Part shown: positions 16,719-26,937 of the stretch, piece after piece
How positions within the stretch are numbered: position 1 is the first letter of the stretch
Layout of the letters: every line of letters starts with the position of its first letter
NCBI RefSeq assembly: GCF_016862915.1
Contig: NZ_BONW01000016.1
Span: forward strand, 124,001 to 188,000
Direction of reading: 5' to 3'
From: Plantactinospora endophytica
GTDB taxonomy: Bacteria > Actinomycetota > Actinomycetes > Mycobacteriales > Micromonosporaceae
Length of the DNA stretch: 64,000 nt
Notes under the pieces: model-generated
What the model saw: the letters and a program-made list of their open reading frames with translations, nothing else
The model's database searches: none
Told to the model about the DNA's origin: nothing
Program-made: the position numbers and the translations under genes

Positions 16719-17927
16719 ATGCCCCACCCACCTCTGCACCTCGCCGTCGCCCTGGACGGCGCCGGCTGGCATCCGGCCGCCTGGCGGGTCGCCGCCGTCG
16801 AACCCGGGACGCTCTTCTCCGCCGGCTACTGGGCCGGACTGGTCGCCGAGGCGGAACGCGGGCTGCTCGACTTCGTCACCATCGAGGACTCCCTCGACCT
16901 CCAGTCGACCCGGCCGGACGGCCCGGACGGGCGTACCGACCAGGTGCGGGGACGGCTCGACGCGGTGCTGCTGGCCGCCCGGATCGCGCCGCTGACCAGC
17001 CACATCGGGCTGATCCCGACCACCAGTACCACGCACACCGAGCCGTTCCACGTCTCGACCGGGATAGCCACCCTCGACCACGTCAGCTCCGGTCGGGCCG
17101 GCTGGCGGCCCCGGGTCTCCGCCCGGCGCTCCGAGGCGGCCCACTTCGGCCGCCGCGAGCTGCCCGAACTGCGCCCGGACCGGCTCGACGAGCCCGGGTA
17201 CGTCCAGCTCGTCGGCGACCTCTTCGCCGAGGCGGCCGACGCGGTGGAGGTGGTGCGGCGGCTCTGGGACAGTTGGCAGGACGACGCGGTGATCCGGGAC
17301 GTGTCGACGGGGCGCTTCGTCGACCGGGACCGGTTGCACTACGCCGACTTCCGGGGCCGCTGGTTCAGCGTCAAGGGACCGTCGATCGTGCCCCGGCCGC
17401 CGCAGGGGCAGCCGGTGGTCGCCGCGCTGGCCCACTCCTCGGTGCCGTACGCCTTCGCGGCCGGCAGCGCGGACGTCGTCTTCGTCACCCCGTCCGACGC
17501 GGCGCAGGCCGAGGCGATCGTGACCGAGGTACGGGCGGCGGAGGAGACCGTCGGGCGTACCGGTGCGCCGCTGCGGATCCTGGCCGACCTGACGGTGCTG
17601 CTCGACGAGGACGACTCGACGGCCCGACGGTTGCGGGACCGGTTGACCGGGCTGCACGGCGGCGAGTTCGACTCCGACGCGGCGAGCTTCACCGGTACTC
17701 CGGGCAGGCTCGCCGAGCAACTCGGGCAGTGGCGGCGGGTCGGCCTGGACGGCTTCCGGCTCCGGCCGGCAGTGCTGCCGCACGACCTCACCGCGATCAC
17801 CCGGCAACTGGTGCCGGCGCTGCGGGACCGGGGGCTGTTCCGCGACGCGTACCCCGGTGGCACCCTGCGGGACCTGCTGGGCCTGCCCCGACCCGCCAAC
17901 CGGTACGCCGCCGTGGCGTCCGCCTGA
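16719..17927 (+). CDS. LLM-class flavin-dependent monooxygenase (first of five)
   Basis: A 402-residue bacterial-luciferase-like oxygenase that would use FMNH2 and O2 on an imported substrate. The fold is seen in the repeated pattern AGLVAEAERGLLDFVTIED, HIGLIPTTSTTHTEPFHVS and TLDHVSSGRAGW. GGAAGGA lies six bases before ATG 16719. It resembles the NtaA/SnaA/DszA subgroup but is shorter. It lies 17 bases after the ATPase gene in the same operon. The precise substrate cannot be read from sequence. Confidence 0.88.
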   Translation: MPHPPLHLAVALDGAGWHPAAWRVAAVEPGTLFSAGYWAGLVAEAERGLLDFVTIEDSLDLQSTRPDGPDGRTDQVRGRLDAVLLAARIAPLTSHIGLIPTTSTTHTEPFHVSTGIATLDHVSSGRAGWRPRVSARRSEAAHFGRRELPELRPDRLDEPGYVQLVGDLFAEAADAVEVVRRLWDSWQDDAVIRDVSTGRFVDRDRLHYADFRGRWFSVKGPSIVPRPPQGQPVVAALAHSSVPYAFAAGSADVVFVTPSDAAQAEAIVTEVRAAEETVGRTGAPLRILADLTVLLDEDDSTARRLRDRLTGLHGGEFDSDAASFTGTPGRLAEQLGQWRRVGLDGFRLRPAVLPHDLTAITRQLVPALRDRGLFRDAYPGGTLRDLLGLPRPANRYAAVASA

Positions 17928-17941
17928 CCGTGGAGGAAGCC

Positions 17942-19348
17942 ATGCCCAAGCAGATCATCCTCGCCGCGCACTTTCCCGGGGTGAACAACCAGACGGTGTG
18001 GAGCGACCCGGAGTCCGGCAGTCAGATCGACTTCGCCTCCTTCGTGCACCTGGCCCGGACGGCGGAGCGGGGGAAGTTCGACTTCTTCTTCCTGGCCGAG
18101 GGGCTGCGGCTGCGGGAACAGCACGGGCAGATCTACGACCTGGACGTGGTCGGCCGGCCGGACAGCCTGACCGTGCTGGCCGCGCTGGCGGCGGTGACCA
18201 GCCGGCTCGGGCTGGCCGGGACGATGAACGCGACCTTTCGGGAGCCGTACGAGCTGGCCCGGCAGTTGGCCACCCTGGACCACCTCTCCGCCGGTCGGGC
18301 CGGCTGGAACGTGGTGACCTCGTCGGACGCCTTCACCGGGGAGAACTTCCGCCGGGGCGGCTTCCTGGACCATGGGCTGCGCTACGAGCGGGCCGCCGAG
18401 TTCGTCCGGGTGGCCCGCCGGCTCTGGGACTCGTGGCCGGCCGGCGCGGTGCTCGGCGACCAGCTCACCGGCCGGTTCGTCCGGGAGCCTGACCCGGGGG
18501 CGTTCGCGCACCACGGCGAGCAGTTCGACATCGCCGGGCACTTCACGGTGCCGCGCAGCCCGCAGGGGCATCCGGTGGTGATCCAGGCCGGCGACTCCCC
18601 GCAGGGGCGGGAGTTCGCCGCCGCCGAGGCGGACGCGATCTTCTCCCGGCACGGCACCCTGGAGGCCGGTCAGGCGTTCTACGCCGACGTGAAGTCCCGG
18701 CTGGTCCGGTACGGCCGCTCGCCCGACGATCTGAAGATCATCCCTGGCGTGACCTTCGTACTCGGCGACACCGACGCCGAGGCGCAGGAGCGGGCCCGGC
18801 ACATCCGGCGCCAGCAGGTCAGTCCGCAGACCGCGATCCGGCTGCTGGAGCAGGTGTGGAACCGGGACCTCTCCGGGTACGACCCGGACGGGCCGCTGCC
18901 GGCCGAGGACCCCGACGTCTCGGACCGGTCCGTCATCGCCGGCCGCACCCGGATGCACGCCGACCCGGTGGACACCGCCCGGAAGTGGCGGGAACTGGCC
19001 GAGGCGAAGGGGCTCGGCATCCGGGAGCTGGTCATCGAGGTGACCGGCCGGCAGTCGTTCATCGGCAGCCCGGAGCGGGTGGCCGGGGAACTGGACCACT
19101 TCGTGCAGTCCGACGCGGCCGACGGCTTCATCCTGGTGCCGCACCTGACCCCGGGCGGGTTGGACGAGTTCGTCGACCGGGTGGTGCCGTTGCTCCAGGA
19201 GCGCGGGGTGTTCCGGACCGAGTACACGACGACGACCCTGCGCGGGCATCTCGGGCTCGGCCCGCCGCGCGCCGGTCGCGTCACCCCCGGCCACGTCGAC
19301 GCCGCCGGGGCGGCGGCCGGTGCGGGCCGACCGGCGGTGCCGGCATGA
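17942..19348 (+). CDS. LLM-class monooxygenase, NtaA/SnaA/DszA family
   Basis: A 468-residue FMNH2-dependent monooxygenase of the NtaA (nitrilotriacetate)/DszA (sulfone) family. Typical features are FFFLAEGLRLRE near 48-60, LGLAGTMNATFREPYELARQ, LDHLSAGRAGWNVVTS, and FRTEYTTTTLRGHLGL at the C-terminus. GGAGGAAG precedes ATG 17942 and the stop overlaps the next gene (ATGA). Family members cleave C-N or C-S bonds of small acids and thiophene sulfones, fitting an organosulfur role here. Confidence 0.9.
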   Translation: MPKQIILAAHFPGVNNQTVWSDPESGSQIDFASFVHLARTAERGKFDFFFLAEGLRLREQHGQIYDLDVVGRPDSLTVLAALAAVTSRLGLAGTMNATFREPYELARQLATLDHLSAGRAGWNVVTSSDAFTGENFRRGGFLDHGLRYERAAEFVRVARRLWDSWPAGAVLGDQLTGRFVREPDPGAFAHHGEQFDIAGHFTVPRSPQGHPVVIQAGDSPQGREFAAAEADAIFSRHGTLEAGQAFYADVKSRLVRYGRSPDDLKIIPGVTFVLGDTDAEAQERARHIRRQQVSPQTAIRLLEQVWNRDLSGYDPDGPLPAEDPDVSDRSVIAGRTRMHADPVDTARKWRELAEAKGLGIRELVIEVTGRQSFIGSPERVAGELDHFVQSDAADGFILVPHLTPGGLDEFVDRVVPLLQERGVFRTEYTTTTLRGHLGLGPPRAGRVTPGHVDAAGAAAGAGRPAVPA

Positions 19349-20412
19349 AGTTCCTGCTGATCACCCTGATCACCCACCTGCCCGATCCGGTGACGGGGGA
19401 GCGGAAGTCGACCACCGACCGGCTCCGCGAGGTGGTCGAGGGCGCGGTGCGGGCCGAGGAGTTGGGCTTCGACGGGTACGGCGTCGGCGAGCGCCACGAG
19501 CGGCCGTTCATCTCCTCGTCGCCGCCCGTGGTACTCAGCCACATCGCCGCCCGGACGACCAGGATCCGGCTCTTCACCGCCGTCACCACGCTCAGCCTGC
19601 TCGACCCGGTGCGGGCGTACGAGGACTACGCCACCCTGGACCACCTTTCCGGCGGCCGGCTCGAACTGATCATCGGCAAGGGGAACGGTGCGGCGCAGGC
19701 GCAGTTGTTCCACGTCACGCCGGAGGACCAGTGGGACCGCAACCGGGAGAGCTACGAGCTGTTCCGACGGCTCTGGCGGGAGGAGAAGGTCACCTGGTCG
19801 GGACGGTTCCGCCCGTCGTTGACCGACGCCGAGACCTGGCCCCGGCCACTGCAACGGCCGATCCGGGTCTGGCACGGCAGCGCCACCAGCCGGGACTCGG
19901 TCGAGCTGGCGGCACGCTTCGGCGATCCGCTCTTCTCCGCGAACGTGACCAACCCGATCGAGCCGTACGCCGAACTGGTCCGGTACTACCGGGAGCGCTG
20001 GGAACACCACGGGCACGATCCGGCCGACGCGCTGGTCGGGGCGGGCAGTGCCGGCTTCTACGCGGCGCGGACCTCGCAGGAGGCGGTGGCGACGTACCGG
20101 CCGATCTTCGCGGCGCGGACGGCCGCCTTCCGCCGGCTGGGCGTCGAGCCGGTCTTCACCGATCTCGAGGACGCGATCGCCCGCAGTTCGATCCTGGTCG
20201 GCAGCCCGGACCAGATCGTCGAGAAGGTGCTCCGCTACCACCGGCGGTTCGGGCACGAGGTGATGCACCTGCCGGCGGACGGTGACGGGCTGACCGAGCG
20301 CCAGCACCGGCGGGCCCTCGAACTGTTCCAGACCGAGATCGCCCCGGTGCTGCGTCGGGAGATCCCCAGCCGTCCCCTGCACCAGCCGTCCGCCGCCACG
20401 GTGGCGGCCTGA
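19345..20412 (+). CDS. LLM-class flavin-dependent oxidoreductase
   Basis: A 355-residue luciferase-like oxidoreductase beginning at the ATG that overlaps the previous stop. Visible elements are GFDGYGVGERHERPF, TTRIRLFTAVTTLSLLDPVR, TLDHLSGGRLELIIGKGNG and the C-terminal ILVGSPDQIVEKVLRYH. It differs in length and sequence from its two upstream neighbours, so it is a separate subfamily (CE1758-like). It probably acts in the same pathway. Confidence 0.9.
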   Translation: MKFLLITLITHLPDPVTGERKSTTDRLREVVEGAVRAEELGFDGYGVGERHERPFISSSPPVVLSHIAARTTRIRLFTAVTTLSLLDPVRAYEDYATLDHLSGGRLELIIGKGNGAAQAQLFHVTPEDQWDRNRESYELFRRLWREEKVTWSGRFRPSLTDAETWPRPLQRPIRVWHGSATSRDSVELAARFGDPLFSANVTNPIEPYAELVRYYRERWEHHGHDPADALVGAGSAGFYAARTSQEAVATYRPIFAARTAAFRRLGVEPVFTDLEDAIARSSILVGSPDQIVEKVLRYHRRFGHEVMHLPADGDGLTERQHRRALELFQTEIAPVLRREIPSRPLHQPSAATVAA

Positions 20413-20428
20413 CCGATCCGGAGCACCC

Positions 20429-21562
20429 ATGTCACCGACCCCGCTCTCCGTCCTCGACCTCTCCCCGGTACCGTCCGGCGGCACGGTCGGCGACGCCCTG
20501 CGCAACACCGTCGACCTGGCCCGCCGGGCCGAACAGTTCGGCTACCGGCGCTACTGGCTCGCCGAGCACCACTTCGCCGCCGGGGTGGCCAGCGCGGCGC
20601 CGGCCGTCCTGATCGGACAGGTGGCCGCCGCCACCAGTGCGCTCCGGGTCGGCTCGGGCGCGGTGCAGCTCGGCCACCAGACGGCGCTGGCGGTGGTCGA
20701 GCAGTTCGGCACGCTGGACGCGCTCTTTCCCGGCCGGATCGACCTCGGTCTCGGCCGGTCCGGCCAGCGTCGGGTCGAGGCGGTCCGGGAACTGGCGGCG
20801 GGCGGGCCGGAGCCGGCGCACCGGGCCGGGCCGCAGGTCGTCGACGGGCTGCTGATCCCGGCGCCGTTCTCCTTCGCCAAGCTGCTCACCTCGCCGAGGT
20901 TCGCGCTCTACTCCGCGCTGTTGCAGCAGCCCGGTGCCGAGTCGCCGGACTTCGCCGACCAGGTCGGCGACATCCTCGCGCTGCTGCGTGGGGAGTACCG
21001 CGACGAGTCCGGGCTGGACGCGCACGCGGTGCCGGGGGAGGGGGCCGACCTCCAGGTGTGGCTGCTCGGCAGCAGTGGCGGGCAGAGCGCGCAGCTCGCC
21101 GGGGCGCTCGGGTTGCCCTTCGCGGCGAACTACCACGTCAGCCCGGCGACGGTGCTGGAGGCGGTGCGGGCCTACCGGGCGGCGTTCCGGCCGTCGGCGG
21201 CGCTGGCCGAGCCGTACGTGGTGGTCTCCGCCGACGTGGTGGTGGCGGCGAAGAACGAGACGGCCCGGGAGTTGGCGGCGCCGTACGGGCTCTGGGTACG
21301 CGGTATCCGTACCGGGCAGGGCGCGATTCCGTTCCCCAGCCCGGAGCAGGCTGCCGGGTACGAGTGGAGTGCCGAGGAGCGGGAACTGGTGGCCGATCGG
21401 GTGGCGACCCAGTTCGTCGGCGCCCCGGCGACGGTGGCGGCGAAACTGCGCGTCCTGCGGGACGTCACCGGTGCCGACGAGCTGCTGGTCACCACCATCA
21501 CGCACGAGCACGCGGCCCGGGTCGACTCGTACGCGCTGCTCGCCAAGGAGTGGTTCGGATGA
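20429..21562 (+). CDS. MsnO8-type LLM-class oxidoreductase
   Basis: A 377-residue LLM oxidoreductase of the MsnO8/luciferase-alpha-like group, recognised by the N-terminal LSVLDLSPVPSG, then RRYWLAEHHF, LRVGSGAVQLGHQTAL and FPGRIDLGLGRSG. GGAG is six bases upstream of ATG 20429. It is the last gene of the first sulfur operon; a gap with a second leader-peptide region follows. Confidence 0.9.
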   Translation: MSPTPLSVLDLSPVPSGGTVGDALRNTVDLARRAEQFGYRRYWLAEHHFAAGVASAAPAVLIGQVAAATSALRVGSGAVQLGHQTALAVVEQFGTLDALFPGRIDLGLGRSGQRRVEAVRELAAGGPEPAHRAGPQVVDGLLIPAPFSFAKLLTSPRFALYSALLQQPGAESPDFADQVGDILALLRGEYRDESGLDAHAVPGEGADLQVWLLGSSGGQSAQLAGALGLPFAANYHVSPATVLEAVRAYRAAFRPSAALAEPYVVVSADVVVAAKNETARELAAPYGLWVRGIRTGQGAIPFPSPEQAAGYEWSAEERELVADRVATQFVGAPATVAAKLRVLRDVTGADELLVTTITHEHAARVDSYALLAKEWFG

Positions 21563-21627
21563 GCCGGTCGGCGCGGCGCCGGCGGCGTCGTACGGCCGGA
21601 ACGGTGCCGCCGAGATATTTCTTAAAC

Positions 21628-21644
21628 CCCATAGGTCTGATGGG
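21628..21644. promoter_or_regulatory. Inverted-repeat operator candidate, copy B
   Basis: CCCAT and ATGGG arms with a 7-nt spacer (aggtctg) in an A+T-rich stretch about 200 bases before the second leader peptide. It matches the layout of copies A and C. Confidence 0.45.
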
Positions 21645-21840
21645 TTATTCCCGGATCGGGGAAAGATCTTGTGCTGCTGGATGTAAACACTCCGCTGACC
21701 TGCTGTCGAGTTCAAAATTCGTCGAGCGGGGCCGGCGTTTTCGGAGGTGTGGAACGGGTCGATCTGATCGGAAGAACGCCATGTTCTCACACTGTGGAAG
21801 GACGTTGACCTGCTCCGACGAGCCGCCGAGGATGGATCAT

Positions 21841-21924
21841 ATGCAGCGGCGATACGAACTCCACCTGGTCAGCCGCCTGCACATCGATCTGGTGCGCCAC
21901 GCCAGCGCAGGCTGTCCCCGCTGA
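21841..21924 (+). CDS. Short leader peptide (27 aa) of the second sulfur-uptake operon
   Basis: The peptide reads MQRRYELHLVSRLHIDLVRH then ASAGCPR. The SRLHIDLVR core and a single Cys near the end match the actinobacterial leader-peptide group. ATG 21841 is favoured because GAGG lies nine bases upstream; in-frame ATGs at 21832 and 21781 would add 3 or 20 residues. It precedes the flavin reductase and sulfonate-type transporter by about 220 bases that hold several hairpins. Confidence 0.75.
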   Translation: MQRRYELHLVSRLHIDLVRHASAGCPR

Positions 21925-21995
21925 CCTCGACCGCCCGGCCTCCCGCCGGCCGCGTCGTCGGGCCGACGCCCGCTGATCCGCCACACGTCATCCCG

Positions 21996-22013
21996 CCGCA
22001 CACCGTCGTGCGG
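21996..22013 (+). promoter_or_regulatory. Small hairpin after the second leader peptide
   Basis: A perfect 6-bp stem ccgcac/gtgcgg with a 6-nt loop, 70 bases after the leader stop. It could be a pause structure; no more can be said. Confidence 0.35.
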
Positions 22014-22045
22014 GCGACCTCACCCTGCTGACCCATCCCGCCGGT

Positions 22046-22077
22046 GCCGGCAACTCCACCCTCCACGGTGGACCGGC
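22046..22077 (+). promoter_or_regulatory. Attenuator hairpin 1 (alternative structure)
   Basis: An 11-bp stem: gccgg at 22046-22050 and tccacc at 22055-22060 pair with ggtgga at 22067-22072 and ccggc at 22073-22077, with a 4-nt bulge and a 6-nt loop. It shares bases 22074-22077 with the next hairpin, so the two cannot form together. Confidence 0.5.
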
Positions 22078-22105
22078 AGCGGGGGTGGGCGCTGCCCACC
22101 TGCCG
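22074..22105 (+). promoter_or_regulatory. Attenuator hairpin 2 (alternative structure)
   Basis: A perfect 7-bp stem ggtgggc/gcccacc (22084-22100, 3-nt loop) extended by cggca (22074-22078) with tgccg (22101-22105) across a 5-nt bulge. It ends about 27 bases before the ribosome site of the flavin reductase. Confidence 0.5.
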
Positions 22106-22129
22106 CCGTCCGCGGTAGGTCCCGGACGG
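22106..22129 (+). promoter_or_regulatory. Hairpin next to the flavin-reductase ribosome site
   Basis: A 7-bp stem ccgtccg/cggacgg with a 10-nt loop, ending two bases before the AGGAG at 22132-22136. It may modulate access to that ribosome site. Confidence 0.4.
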
Positions 22130-22143
22130 TTAGGAGAGACGTC

Positions 22144-22665
22144 ATGACCATCACGGACGTGACCCCGATCGACACCCCGGCCGACACCCCGATCGACGCG
22201 ACCCGGTTCCGGGCGCTGCTGCGCCGGCAGGCCGCCGCGGTGACCGTGGTGACCGCCGCCGGGCAGCCGCCGGTCGGCTTCACCGCGACCTCGTTCACCT
22301 CGGTCTCGCTTGACCCGCCGCTGGTCTCCTTCTGCCTGTCCCGGACGTCGTCGAGCTGGCCGACCGTGGCCCGTACCGGGCACGTCGCCGTACACCTGCT
22401 GGCGCAGGGGCAGCACGAGGTCGCCCGGACCTTCGCGACCAGCGGCATCGACCGGTTCGCCAGCCACCCCGGATGGCGCCCCGGCCCGTACGGGGTGCCG
22501 CTGCTGGACGGTCCGGTCGCCTGGCTCGTCTGCCGGGTCGTCGAACGGGTGGTCGCCGGTGACCACGCGATCGTGCTGGCCGAGCCGTTGACCGGTGAGC
22601 ACACCGAGGACGGCGACGCGCCACTGCTCTACCACATGGGCCGGTACGCCTCCCTGGCTGCCTGA
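22144..22665 (+). CDS. Flavin reductase (FMN-binding, HpaC/SsuE-like role)
   Basis: A 173-residue flavin reductase-like domain protein that would supply FMNH2 to the LLM monooxygenases. The signature VTVVTAAGQPPVGFTATSFT then SVSLDPPLVSFCLSRTSSSW is the flavin-binding part, and the C-terminus has the typical DAPLLYHMGRY. AGGAG lies seven bases before the ATG. It is first in the second sulfur operon, just after the leader region. Two-component flavin systems need exactly this partner. Confidence 0.92.
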   Translation: MTITDVTPIDTPADTPIDATRFRALLRRQAAAVTVVTAAGQPPVGFTATSFTSVSLDPPLVSFCLSRTSSSWPTVARTGHVAVHLLAQGQHEVARTFATSGIDRFASHPGWRPGPYGVPLLDGPVAWLVCRVVERVVAGDHAIVLAEPLTGEHTEDGDAPLLYHMGRYASLAA

Positions 22666-22728: not shown

Positions 22729-23820
22729 ATGTCACCCTCACCCCCTTCCGCCCGTTCCCGATCGGGACCGCCGCTGCTCCGGCGGCGTACCCTCCTCGGC
22801 GCCGCCCTCAGTGTCGCGGCAGCCGGACTCGCCGGCTGTGCCGGCGACGACACCCCCACGGTCCGGCTGGCCTTCGACGCGCCACTTCCGGCGGAGGTGC
22901 CGGGCGGCACGGTGCTGCGGGTCGGCGACAAGGAACTCCAGAAGGCGATCGAGTTCTCCGGCGAGGCGGAGAAATTCACCTTCGAGGTCTCCTGGGCGAA
23001 CATCAGCGGCGGCCCGCAGACCCTGGAGGCGTTCCGGGCCGACGCCCTGGACATCGGCTCGGTCGCCGACATCCCGCCGATCCACGCCGCCTGGACCGGA
23101 CTGCCCACCCGGATCGTCGCGGCCAAGTTCCGGCAGGACCCGATCAACCACCCGATCTACCAGCTCGGCATCGCACCCGGTGCCGGCGTCGCCAGCCTGG
23201 CCGACCTGCGCGGCAAGCGGATCGCCTACAGCCCGGGACAGGCGCAGGGCGCGCTGGTGCTCCGGGTACTGCACCAGGCCGGCCTGACCAAGGGCGACGT
23301 CAAGCTGGTCGAACTGGCCAGCACCGGCGACGTGTACCCGACCGCGCTGGCCAGCCGCCAGGTCGACGTGGCGCCGATCGGCGGCATCAACATCAAGCGC
23401 TACCTGGCCAAGTACGGCCGGGACGGCGGCACCGCCATCTCGCACGGCCTGCGGGACGACCCCGGCCACCTGTACGCGCCGGAGCGGATTCTCCAGGACT
23501 CCGCGAAGGCGGCGGCGATCCGGGAGTACGTGCAGCGCTGGGCGCGGGCCTGGGTGTGGATCGAGCAGAACCCGGACGAGTGGATCGAGCGGTACTACGT
23601 CAAGGACCAGGGACTGTCCCGTGAGGACGGTCAGTGGCTGGTCGACAACGCCGGAGTGCCGGACATCCCGGCGGACTGGTCGGAAGTGATCACCCGACAC
23701 CAGCAGACCATCGACCTGCTCGCCAAGGAGACCGGTAACAAGCCGCTGAACGCGGCCGACCTCTACGACCGGCGCTACGAGCCGCTCGGCGCCGCCGCGT
23801 TCGGGGAGGGACCGAAGTGA
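22729..23820 (+). CDS. ABC transporter substrate-binding lipoprotein, sulfonate/taurine type
   Basis: A 363-residue SsuA/TauA-like binding protein. ATG 22729 is preferred over a GTG 15 bases upstream because CAGGAG is about six bases before it. The signal carries RRRTLLG (about 18-24) and the lipobox LAGC (Cys37), suggesting Tat-exported lipoprotein. Fold elements: GPQTLEAFRADALDIGSVAD, NHPIYQLGI, LADLRGKRIAYSPGQAQGAL and ASRQVDVAPIGG. It should bind aliphatic sulfonates or related acids. The stop overlaps the permease start. Confidence 0.9.
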   Translation: MSPSPPSARSRSGPPLLRRRTLLGAALSVAAAGLAGCAGDDTPTVRLAFDAPLPAEVPGGTVLRVGDKELQKAIEFSGEAEKFTFEVSWANISGGPQTLEAFRADALDIGSVADIPPIHAAWTGLPTRIVAAKFRQDPINHPIYQLGIAPGAGVASLADLRGKRIAYSPGQAQGALVLRVLHQAGLTKGDVKLVELASTGDVYPTALASRQVDVAPIGGINIKRYLAKYGRDGGTAISHGLRDDPGHLYAPERILQDSAKAAAIREYVQRWARAWVWIEQNPDEWIERYYVKDQGLSREDGQWLVDNAGVPDIPADWSEVITRHQQTIDLLAKETGNKPLNAADLYDRRYEPLGAAAFGEGPK

Positions 23821-24676
23821 CCACCCAGGTCGATCCGATCACCACCCGACTGACCCCGGCCGCCGCGCGCACCCCGGACCGCGAGCCGCCGAAGCCCGGC
23901 GTACGCCGTCCGGACGCCCGCCGCCGACGGCGCCTCGGGCCGGGCCGGCCGATCCCGTTCGGCGCGGCGGTCGGGCCGCTGCTGCTGCTCGCGGTCTGGT
24001 CGCTCGGCTCGCTCACCGGTCTGCTCGACGAGCGGACCCTGTCGGCGCCGTGGACCGTGCTGACCACCACCGGGGACCTGATCGCCAGCGGACGGCTCCA
24101 GGAGAGCCTGCTGATCTCCACCCAGCGGGCCGGGCTCGGCCTCGCCTTCGGCGTGCTGATCGGCACCGTGCTGGCCCTGGTCGCCGGGCTGAGCCGGTGG
24201 GGCGAGGCGATCATCGACGGCCCGGTGCAGATCAAGCGGGCGATTCCCGCGTTGGCGCTGCTCCCGCTGCTGATCCTCTGGCTCGGCATCGACGAGCGGA
24301 TGAAGGTGGTCACCATCGTGCTCGGCGTCTTCGTACCGGTCTACATCCACACGCACAACGGCCTGCGCAGCATCGACTCGCGCTACGTCGAGCTGGCCGA
24401 GTCGCTGCGGCTGAGCCCCGCCCAGTTCGTCCGCCGGGTGGTGCTGCCCGGCGCGCTCCCCGGCTTCCTGCTCGGGCTGCGCTTCGCGGTCGTCTCCGCC
24501 TGGCTCGCCCTGGTGGTGGTCGAGCAGATCAACTCGACCAGCGGGATCGGCTACATGATGGAGCTGGCCCGCCAGTACGGCCAGACCGACATCATCATCG
24601 TCGGCCTGGTGCTCTACGGCATCCTCGGACTGCTCTCCGACGGCGCCGTCCGGCTCGTGCAGAGGAGGGCACTGTC

Positions 24677-24701
<25 letters not shown>
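23817..24701 (+). CDS. ABC transporter permease, SsuC/TauC type
   Basis: A 294-residue BPD-type permease, about six membrane segments, with the coupling loop VELAESLRLSPAQFVRRVVL followed by PGALPGFLLGLRF. GTG 23817 overlaps the upstream TGA. The cytoplasmic N-terminus of about 45 residues is Arg/Pro-rich. It forms the channel for the sulfonate-type importer. Confidence 0.92.
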
Positions 24702-25554
<853 letters not shown>

Positions 25555-25558
<4 letters not shown>

Positions 25559-26937
25559 GCCGACGACCCGGCACCCTGCACCTGAACGCGTTCCTGATGG
25601 GGGTGGGGCACCACGAGGCGGCCTGGCGGCTGCCGGAGAGCGACGCGTTCGCGCACACCGACGTCGGGCACTTCCAGGAGTTGGCCCGGATCGCCGAGCG
25701 GGGCAGGCTCGACTCGCTGTTCCTGGCCGACAGCCCGGTGCTGTGGAACAACATCGGCCGCCGCCCGTCCGGCGCGCTGGAGCCGACCGTGCTGCTCACC
25801 GCGTTGGCCGGGGTGACCCAGCACATCGGACTGATCGCGACCGCGTCGACCACCTACAACGAGCCGTTCAACCTGGCCCGCCGGTTCGCCTCGGTGGACC
25901 ACGTCAGCGGCGGCCGGGCCGGCTGGAACATCGTCACCACCGCCGGCGCGGACGCGGCCCGCAACTTCAACCTCGACGACCTGCCGGCACACCGCGACCG
26001 GTACGAGCGGGCCGCCGAGTTCATCGAGGTCTCGCGCAAGCTCTGGGACAGTTGGGCCGACGACGCGGCGCTCGGGGACAAGGCGGCCGGAGTCTGGGGC
26101 GACCAGAACCGGATCTTCCCGCCCCGGCACGCCGGCCGGCACTTCAAGGTGGCCGGCGCGCTGAACGTGCCCCGGCCACCGCAGGGCTATCCGCTGCTGG
26201 TGCAGGCCGGGTCCTCGGAGGACGGCAAGGAGCTGGCCGCCCGGTACGCCGAGGCGGTCTTCACCGCCCAGCAGACGCTGGCCGAGGCGCAGGCGTTCTA
26301 CACCGACCTGAAGGCGCGTACGGCGGCGCTGGGGCGGGACCCGGACGGGATCAAGATCCTGCCCGGCATCGTGCCGGTGCTCGGCGCAACCGAGGCGGAG
26401 GCGCACGCCCTGGCGGACGAGTTGGACCGGCTGATCGTCCCGGAGTACGCCAAACGCCAGCTCGCCACCACGCTCGGCATCTCGCCCGACGACCTCGATC
26501 TCGACCGGGAACTGCCGGCCGAACTGCCCGACGAGGAGCAGATCGAGGGGGCGAAGAGCCGCCGTACCCTGATCGTCACGCTGGCCCGCCGGGAGCGGCT
26601 GACCGTACGGCAACTCATCGGGCGGCTCGGCGGCGGTCGCGGGCACCGCACCTTCGCCGGTACCCCCGAGCAGGTCGCCGACGCCATCGAGGACTGGTGG
26701 GACAACGGGGCCGCCGACGGCTTCAACGTGATGCCGCCGGTGCTCCCCTCCGGCCTGGTCGCCTTCGTCGACCACGTGGTGCCGATCCTGCAACGGCGCG
26801 GGCTGTTCCGCACCGAGTACACCGGCCGTACCCTGCGGGACAACTACGGCCTGGCCCGCCCCGCCAACCAGTTCACCGCCGATGCCGTCGAGCCGCCGTC
26901 GAGGTCCCGACGACTGCCCGCGGCGTCCGTCTCATAG
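25555..26937 (+). CDS. LLM-class monooxygenase, NtaA/SnaA/DszA family (fifth)
   Basis: A 460-residue NtaA/DszA-like monooxygenase. ATG 25555 overlaps the upstream TGA and follows GAGGAGG. Family features: [63 protein letters not shown] and [16 protein letters not shown]. It is related to but distinct from the enzyme at 17942. It likely desulfonates or desulfurizes the imported compound with the flavin reductase. Confidence 0.9.

Follow-up and report, generated by a model that had tools for sequence, protein, structure and literature searches.

The 64,000-nt stretch of the Plantactinospora endophytica genome analysed here (the window) carries a short open reading frame immediately ahead of an operon that begins with a flavin reductase gene. 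Does this frame encode a leader peptide that senses cysteine supply, and by what route could its translation reach the genes behind it? A preliminary description of the locus had proposed an attenuator in which two mutually exclusive hairpins are switched by a ribosome stalled on the leader. The reading that we prefer, and regard as likely, is that the frame encodes a leaderless leader peptide through which cysteine supply controls the sulfonate uptake and desulfurisation operon behind it.

The frame is open from two ATG codons, at 21832 (30 aa) and 21841 (27 aa). The inner ATG is favoured as the leader start because it is kept in four relatives (loci L025, L026, L027 and L081) and because the −35 and −10 hexamers place the predicted transcript start at or beside it (Table 1). 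Hexamers and spacings in L025 and L026 are identical to those of the window, and the promoters of L027 and L081 read TTGACC-18-GATTAT-7-ATG and TTGACC-17-GAGCAT-7-ATG. Across the 48 unique sequences of the leader's subtype, the top promoter invariably lies 6–7 nt ahead of the ATG, and an SD-like site precedes the leader ATG in four. Since the conserved promoter sits 7 nt ahead of the start codon, the transcript is probably leaderless. Of 52 unique regions upstream of subtype leaders, 47 have a GGAA box exactly 9 nt 5′ of the leader-promoter TTGAC, perhaps as an activator or sigma contact.

With its start kept in four relatives and a promoter directly 5′, the 27-aa ORF of the preliminary description can be taken as real. 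Its designation there as the second leader of a cysteine type finds no counterpart, as no other leader was found in the 64-kb window: a regular expression for the family motif matched once, and of the three Cys-bearing short ORFs that passed a leaderless-promoter filter, the two besides the leader have poorer hexamers. Short ORFs with clustered cysteines number 23 in the window.

Table 1. Features of the leader, the spacer and the operon in the window, and leaders of a second type at other reductase loci
Feature	Position	Strand	Remarks
GGAA box	21796-21799	+	begins 9 nt before −35 TTGACC
−35 hexamer TTGACC, leader promoter	21805-21810	+	
−10 hexamer GAGGAT	21828-21833	+	17 nt after −35, 7 nt ahead of leader ATG
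Leader ORF	21841-21924	+	27 aa, MQRRYELHLVSRLHIDLVRHASAGCPR; NF042934 match, with relatives L025, L026, L027, L081
Proposed sensing codon TGT (Cys, Asp+9)	21913-21915	+	TGT in 172 of the 175 family leaders that have Cys at this place
Long hairpin holding H1	22037-22085	+	−32.6 kcal/mol; outer stem 22042-22050/22073-22081, two pairs with both-sided changes
H1	22046-22077	+	−17.3 kcal/mol
H2	22074-22105	+	−18.9 kcal/mol; folds in window, unsupported by relatives
H3b, ACCTGCCGC/GCGGTAGGT	22098-22120	+	in MFE and consensus folds; excludes H3
H3, CCGTCCG/CGGACGG, next to RBS	22106-22129	+	−14.7; ends just before TTAGGAGAG
RBS TAGGAGAG and ATG of flavin reductase	22131-22146	+	aligned in five species
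Flavin reductase (PF01613), first structural gene	22144-22665	+	
SsuA-like binding protein	22729-23820	+	TIGR01728 87.2 bits, cut-off 163.5
SsuC-like permease	23817-24701	+	best NCBIfam model is the sulfonate one, below cut-off
ATPase	24677-25558	+	best NCBIfam model is the sulfonate one, below cut-off
NtaA/DmoA-family FMN monooxygenase	25555-26937	+	TIGR03860 547.8 bits, cut-off 279.7
AVSRGCCRGWT leaders	L059-L066, L068, L069, L071, L075-L078, L083		about 110-265 nt before flavin reductase

A spacer of 219 nt separates the leader stop from the ATG of the reductase at 22144. The flavin reductase and sulfonate importer that the preliminary description placed behind the leader are both recognisable in the reductase, binding protein, permease, ATPase and monooxygenase genes of Table 1. 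Sulfonate or sulfone scavenging is the natural reading of this cluster from its predicted products, and would place such scavenging in Micromonosporaceae under probable cysteine-leader control.

By score, the leader is a member of NCBIfam NF042934 (cis_reg_atten), a family of putative leader peptides. The 27-aa and 30-aa forms score 27.6 and 27.2 bits (cut-off 27), relatives score 27.6 and 30.1 bits, and the 19-position core of the model is matched end to end; the frame also lies directly 5′ of a structural operon. The family entry names no mechanism, and the window copy supplies a context for it, ahead of a flavin reductase/sulfonate operon. Against the Ms4527A family (NF042936) the leader scores 19.3 bits, under the cut-off of 45, and no Rfam family matched in the window.

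Matches to NF042934 are common among close relatives: at E ≤ 0.05 they occur in 194 of 200 genomes of the same bacterial family (169 above cut-off), and at E ≤ 0.001 in 28 of 396 genomes of a phylum-wide draw (24 above cut-off). The genome of P. endophytica itself has four further matches at E ≤ 0.05, two above cut-off. By Pfam, the first gene downstream (gene starts come from a heuristic and some are visibly wrong, e.g. at L105, L109 and L312) is a rhodanese at L001, which is also an Ms5788A-family Cys leader, a nitrite/sulfite reductase at L005, a family-3 solute-binding protein at L004, and at L002 a secreted-looking M14 zinc carboxypeptidase, which is not an obvious sulfur gene. A profile of the subtype found matches at E ≤ 0.01 in 159 of 354 family genomes, most of them from one genus, with 73 places at E ≤ 5e-8 among the matches listed; RVHVDLVRHASALC-stop forms the C-terminal end of 21 of the 29 subtype leaders read. 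In 12 subtype regions, scored for operon genes with ATPase homologues left out, a leader was called in nine, and in all nine it is followed by at least one of permease (26–62% identity), NtaA-type monooxygenase and flavin reductase, the order varying between loci. Of the remaining three, one is without any match and the other two show a reductase or binding protein. The NF042934 match, the conservation before the same gene and, in Micromonospora, before related operons, and the own-genome relatives before rhodanese and nitrite/sulfite reductase support the assignment of the leader to a cysteine type.

Flavin reductase matches were found in five of seven Plantactinospora genomes, and the leader is intact before the reductase in four (the window, L025, L026 and L027) as well as in L081 of another genus. 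The old leader of P. mayteni (L024) lacks a visible start and promoter; its frame and TGT codon are kept. A short ORF, MSSELRLTIRGHIDFGRVWSSSCLS, ends 143 nt further upstream, behind TTGACA-17-TGAACT-6-ATG and with TGT at the equivalent place (the two leaders lie at oriented positions 1054-1131 and 1224-1274 of L024). This ORF has the look of the family, yet it gave no NF042934 match and 19.9 bits with NF042936 (cut-off 45). Among 80 named reductase loci, six have a family-like leader within 600 nt upstream, the replacement leader of P. mayteni included.

The leader contains a single Cys codon and no Cys run. Leaders were located in 183 loci with a purpose-built profile, of which 177 were kept for codon counts once the five duplicates L003, L025, L026, L027 and L081 and one poor match, L232, had been removed. 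Nine residues after the core Asp (Asp+9), Cys is encoded by TGT in 172 leaders and by TGC in three, and two leaders lack Cys there. As these 177 still include near-duplicates from two collections, the 138 unique sequences were counted besides, giving 133 TGT and 3 TGC, whereas the remaining Cys codons of the same unique peptides are 41 TGT and 131 TGC (41/172 TGT). A Fisher test of the two sets of codons gives 1.9e-45, which, the sequences being related, is not an exact probability. TGT is universal at Asp+9 in six classes (10/10, 31/31, 55/55, 13/13, 11/11 and 9/9) and present in 13/15 poly-Cys and 30/33 "other" leaders. Background ORFs use TGT for 11–14% of Cys (26/191 in the window, 268/2347 in the loci), a share that the choice of ORFs with GC3 > 0.85 in any frame probably lowers somewhat.

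Synonymous change is permitted elsewhere in the core. In the unique leaders the Asp codon is GAC or GAT in 114 and 23 cases, the Leu codon ends in G or C in 94 and 44, and the codon for Arg at +3 ends in C, G, T or A in 67, 47, 19 and 5. The peptide is conserved while synonymous variants occur at D, L, R and V. TGT is followed by a pyrimidine (C or T) in 133 of 138, at a residue that is variable. Fixation of TGT while neighbouring codons vary synonymously points to UGU-specific decoding together with a conserved nascent peptide; such a combination of peptide-level and one codon-level constraint is the trace expected of a stalling site. An RNA contact could also give the codon pattern, but its partner should covary, and the pairing tests described below found no general partner. 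The family to which the leader belongs was already known; what is newly found here is the near-fixation of TGT at the key cysteine. This amounts to a sharp rule that can be tested, UGU and not UGC at a single position, in a family so far annotated only as putative leader peptides.

We then considered the spacer. H1 and H2 do fold and overlap as first described, with four bases in common (22074-22077), and a third hairpin, H3, does lie beside the ribosome site. The hairpins are not clearly beyond chance: 19 of 200 dinucleotide shuffles contain two competing 32-nt hairpins no less stable than the weaker of the pair, and the fold energies have z-scores of −1.22 for leader plus spacer (13 of 100 shuffles as stable) and −1.55 for the spacer alone (13 of 200). 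Covariation was examined in an alignment of five species. H1 has three pairs with both-sided changes, and two of these fall in its outer helix (91.1% paired). For H1, 5 of 500 shuffles attain the covariation score and 168 of 500 attain the number of both-sided pairs; in trials with 30 related neutral sequences 5–25% of alignments do equally well. In H2, no both-sided change was seen in the five species and 69.6% of cells pair, a level reached by 216 of 500 shuffles. H3 has one both-sided pair (score reached by 55 of 500 shuffles) and one pair that is broken in four of the five species; the single both-sided pair of H3b is not above shuffles (score reached by 195 of 500). Thus the covariation that the preliminary description had called for in both hairpins is present as two compensatory pairs in the outer stem of H1 and absent from H2, and with no covariation in H2 the pair was rejected as a switch. 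No terminator-like site or U-tract was found in 21560-22200.

To model the effect of a stalled ribosome, a ribosome-sized mask was placed on the UGU and the cost of opening the RBS of the first gene was computed for 60 sequences, at most eight per class, the class names being assigned in this analysis. The first-gene starts used for this model and for the SD pairing comparisons come from the heuristic mentioned above. The mask lowered the cost in five of eight classes (RVHMDL −5.0, AAML −2.4, poly-Cys −1.8, sseA −1.3 and SSAICP −1.1 kcal/mol), with neighbouring masks equal or better in several of them (SSAICP −2.0 at −18; sseA −1.7, AAML −2.5 and poly-Cys −2.6 at −9) and −4.5 at +9 and +27 in RVHMDL. 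The cost did not fall in the Micromonospora (−0.2), ARLHVDLCR (+1.1) and Plantactinospora (mean +1.0 kcal/mol) classes; the four Plantactinospora values are +0.3 for the window and +0.4, +3.8 and −0.5 for the others. RBS sequestration is therefore a reasonable model for some of the family; at the window locus it is unproven.

Direct pairing between leader and SD gave a similarly mixed picture. The consensus fold of 37 unique Micromonospora-type sequences joins CCUGGUC in the Asp-Leu-Val codons of the leader to GAUCAGG at the SD of the first gene, mostly at positions that are invariant among Micromonospora-type leaders (L169-L193 included). That the UGU region pairs with the SD seemed attractive on inspection of several loci; tested as a general rule, the idea was rejected: percentile medians lie at 0.30–0.72 in eight of nine classes and at 0.20 in the poly-Cys class (14 sequences). 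When own and foreign SD regions are compared, most classes show a suggestive excess of pairing near the UGU, with similar excesses at further offsets. By eye, a GACAG partner is broken in L170, L171, L174 and L176. At L002 (1501-1720), CCUGUCG in the UGU region and CGACAGG at the SD are complementary.

How, then, might the leader act? According to our preferred reading, transcription would start at or beside the leader ATG, ribosomes would translate the conserved peptide RLHIDLVRHASAGC and slow at the single UGU when Cys-tRNA is short, and a stalled ribosome would refold the 219-nt spacer such that the RBS of the reductase opens or transcription continues. The lack of a U-tract terminator in the region scanned makes translational control or Rho-dependent attenuation a likelier route than intrinsic termination. 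Evidence for any structural switch is weak, as H2 is unsupported, the RBS-proximal hairpins are weakly supported and the fold energies are within chance. Regulation by stalling on the leader, as first described, is plausible in outline, but its specific H1/H2 switch is unsupported, both by the alignment and by the failure of the Cys-codon mask to lower the cost of RBS opening in Plantactinospora. Further points that weigh against the preferred reading are the single Cys codon, the lack of modelled RBS opening in Plantactinospora, nine of 31 reductase loci with no leader of either type discussed below within 600 nt, and the position of L002 before an M14 peptidase.

Four other explanations were weighed against control by cysteine supply. 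The leader could be an arrest peptide, in which the nascent chain and a UGU in the A site stall the ribosome in response to cysteine or a sulfur metabolite as opposed to plain codon starvation. Conservation of the peptide core with free synonymous sites, the fixed Asp-Cys spacing and the use of one UGU in place of a Cys run in the subtype would all suit such a peptide, but a conserved leader RNA might yield part of the same pattern, the D-L-V codons of the Micromonospora type being able to pair with the SD; from the comparisons made here we consider this reading rather unlikely. We rate as improbable a conserved RNA element whose short frame is kept because the RNA pairs with the RBS, translation being incidental. 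The CCUGGUC–GAUCAGG consensus pairing and the pyrimidine after UGU despite a variable residue would be explained by it; the varying third positions of the D, L, R and V codons would not, UGU-proximal SD pairing is not special in most classes, and the CCUGGUC/GAUCAGG pairs, mostly invariant, are little informative.

A classical attenuator with H1 and H2 as its two alternative states seems to us improbable to the same degree: both hairpins fold, four bases are common to them and the outer stem of H1 has its two both-sided pairs, but H2 has none, pairs no better than shuffles do, lacks a U-tract behind it as does the rest of the leader region, and equal hairpin pairs arise in 19 of 200 shuffles. 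Least credible, and very improbable in our estimate, is a chance ORF lying between two operons with no regulatory role: a score barely above the curated cut-off would suit it, but ORF, promoter and start are all kept in four relatives.

Compared with systems already described, the leader most likely works like the cysteine-responsive attenuators of M. smegmatis, minus the Cys run. Poly-Cys leaderless short ORFs of that species are reported as such attenuators (Canestrari 2020, as cited in PMC9031893, PMC9094748 and PMC13236596), and passages of PMC13236596 and PMC9031893 report attenuation by stalling for related mycobacterial leaders. In these accounts the M. smegmatis ORFs share with the window leader a predicted leaderless start, a Cys codon near the end and sulfur genes behind, and differ in having a run of Cys codons where the window leader has one codon and the RLHIDLVRHASAGC core. 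The Ms5788A family (NF042933), with L001 as its member in the same genome (61.1 bits, cut-off 45), has an xVDLxR...C core in common with the window leader and differs by its AVDLCRVATCLC core and three Cys. Candidate Cys leaders of Actinobacteria from a 2005 comparative analysis are likewise described there as being without obvious terminators, but consist of Cys-codon runs that precede cys operons and cbs (PMC1262725). The uORFC-8-2 motif before cysS in Rhodobacterales, as presented in PMC8632094, is also a short uORF with Cys codons and proposed ribosome-mediated attenuation; in contrast to the window leader, it belongs to alphaproteobacteria and has two tandem Cys codons, in which UGC dominates, and an intrinsic terminator. 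The core peptide strings of the leader are not printed in the open-licence literature searched, and the passages found there state no UGU rule for such leaders. If UGU identity does matter, one codon is enough to sense an amino acid, where classical attenuators use codon runs.

The reductase gene is not always preceded by the same leader. Among 31 reductase loci, some near-identical to each other, five have the RLHIDL-type leader, and 16 have an unrelated short ORF upstream with the core AVSRGCCRGWT, their reductases being 70–81% identical. Neither type was seen within 600 nt in the other ten, P. mayteni among them, nor, by motif match and promoter filter, before the monooxygenases at 16719-21562 of the window. 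These form a run of luciferase-like/NtaA-type genes upstream of the leader, one of the MsnO8 family. Three versions of the AVSRGCCRGWT peptide gave no NCBIfam match above cut-off (best 19.2 bits with a lantibiotic model, cut-off 75). That related genes are preceded by two leaderless leaders, both with Cys but unrelated to each other, argues that cysteine is the signal for both; this apparent exchange lets two sensors of a single signal be compared in nature. Tentatively, and with more doubt than confidence, we propose that the sensor of the family is the UGU at Asp+9 in its nascent-peptide context, round which the poly-Cys run was apparently built (13/15), and that an operon may swap in an SRGCCRGWT-type peptide as a convergent sensor for one regulon. 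In the 16 AVSRGCCRGWT leaders the −10 hexamer lies 7 nt (15 cases) or 6 nt (one) ahead of the ATG, as in the leaderless type; no Cys codon is fixed as TGT in them, and TGC is commoner.
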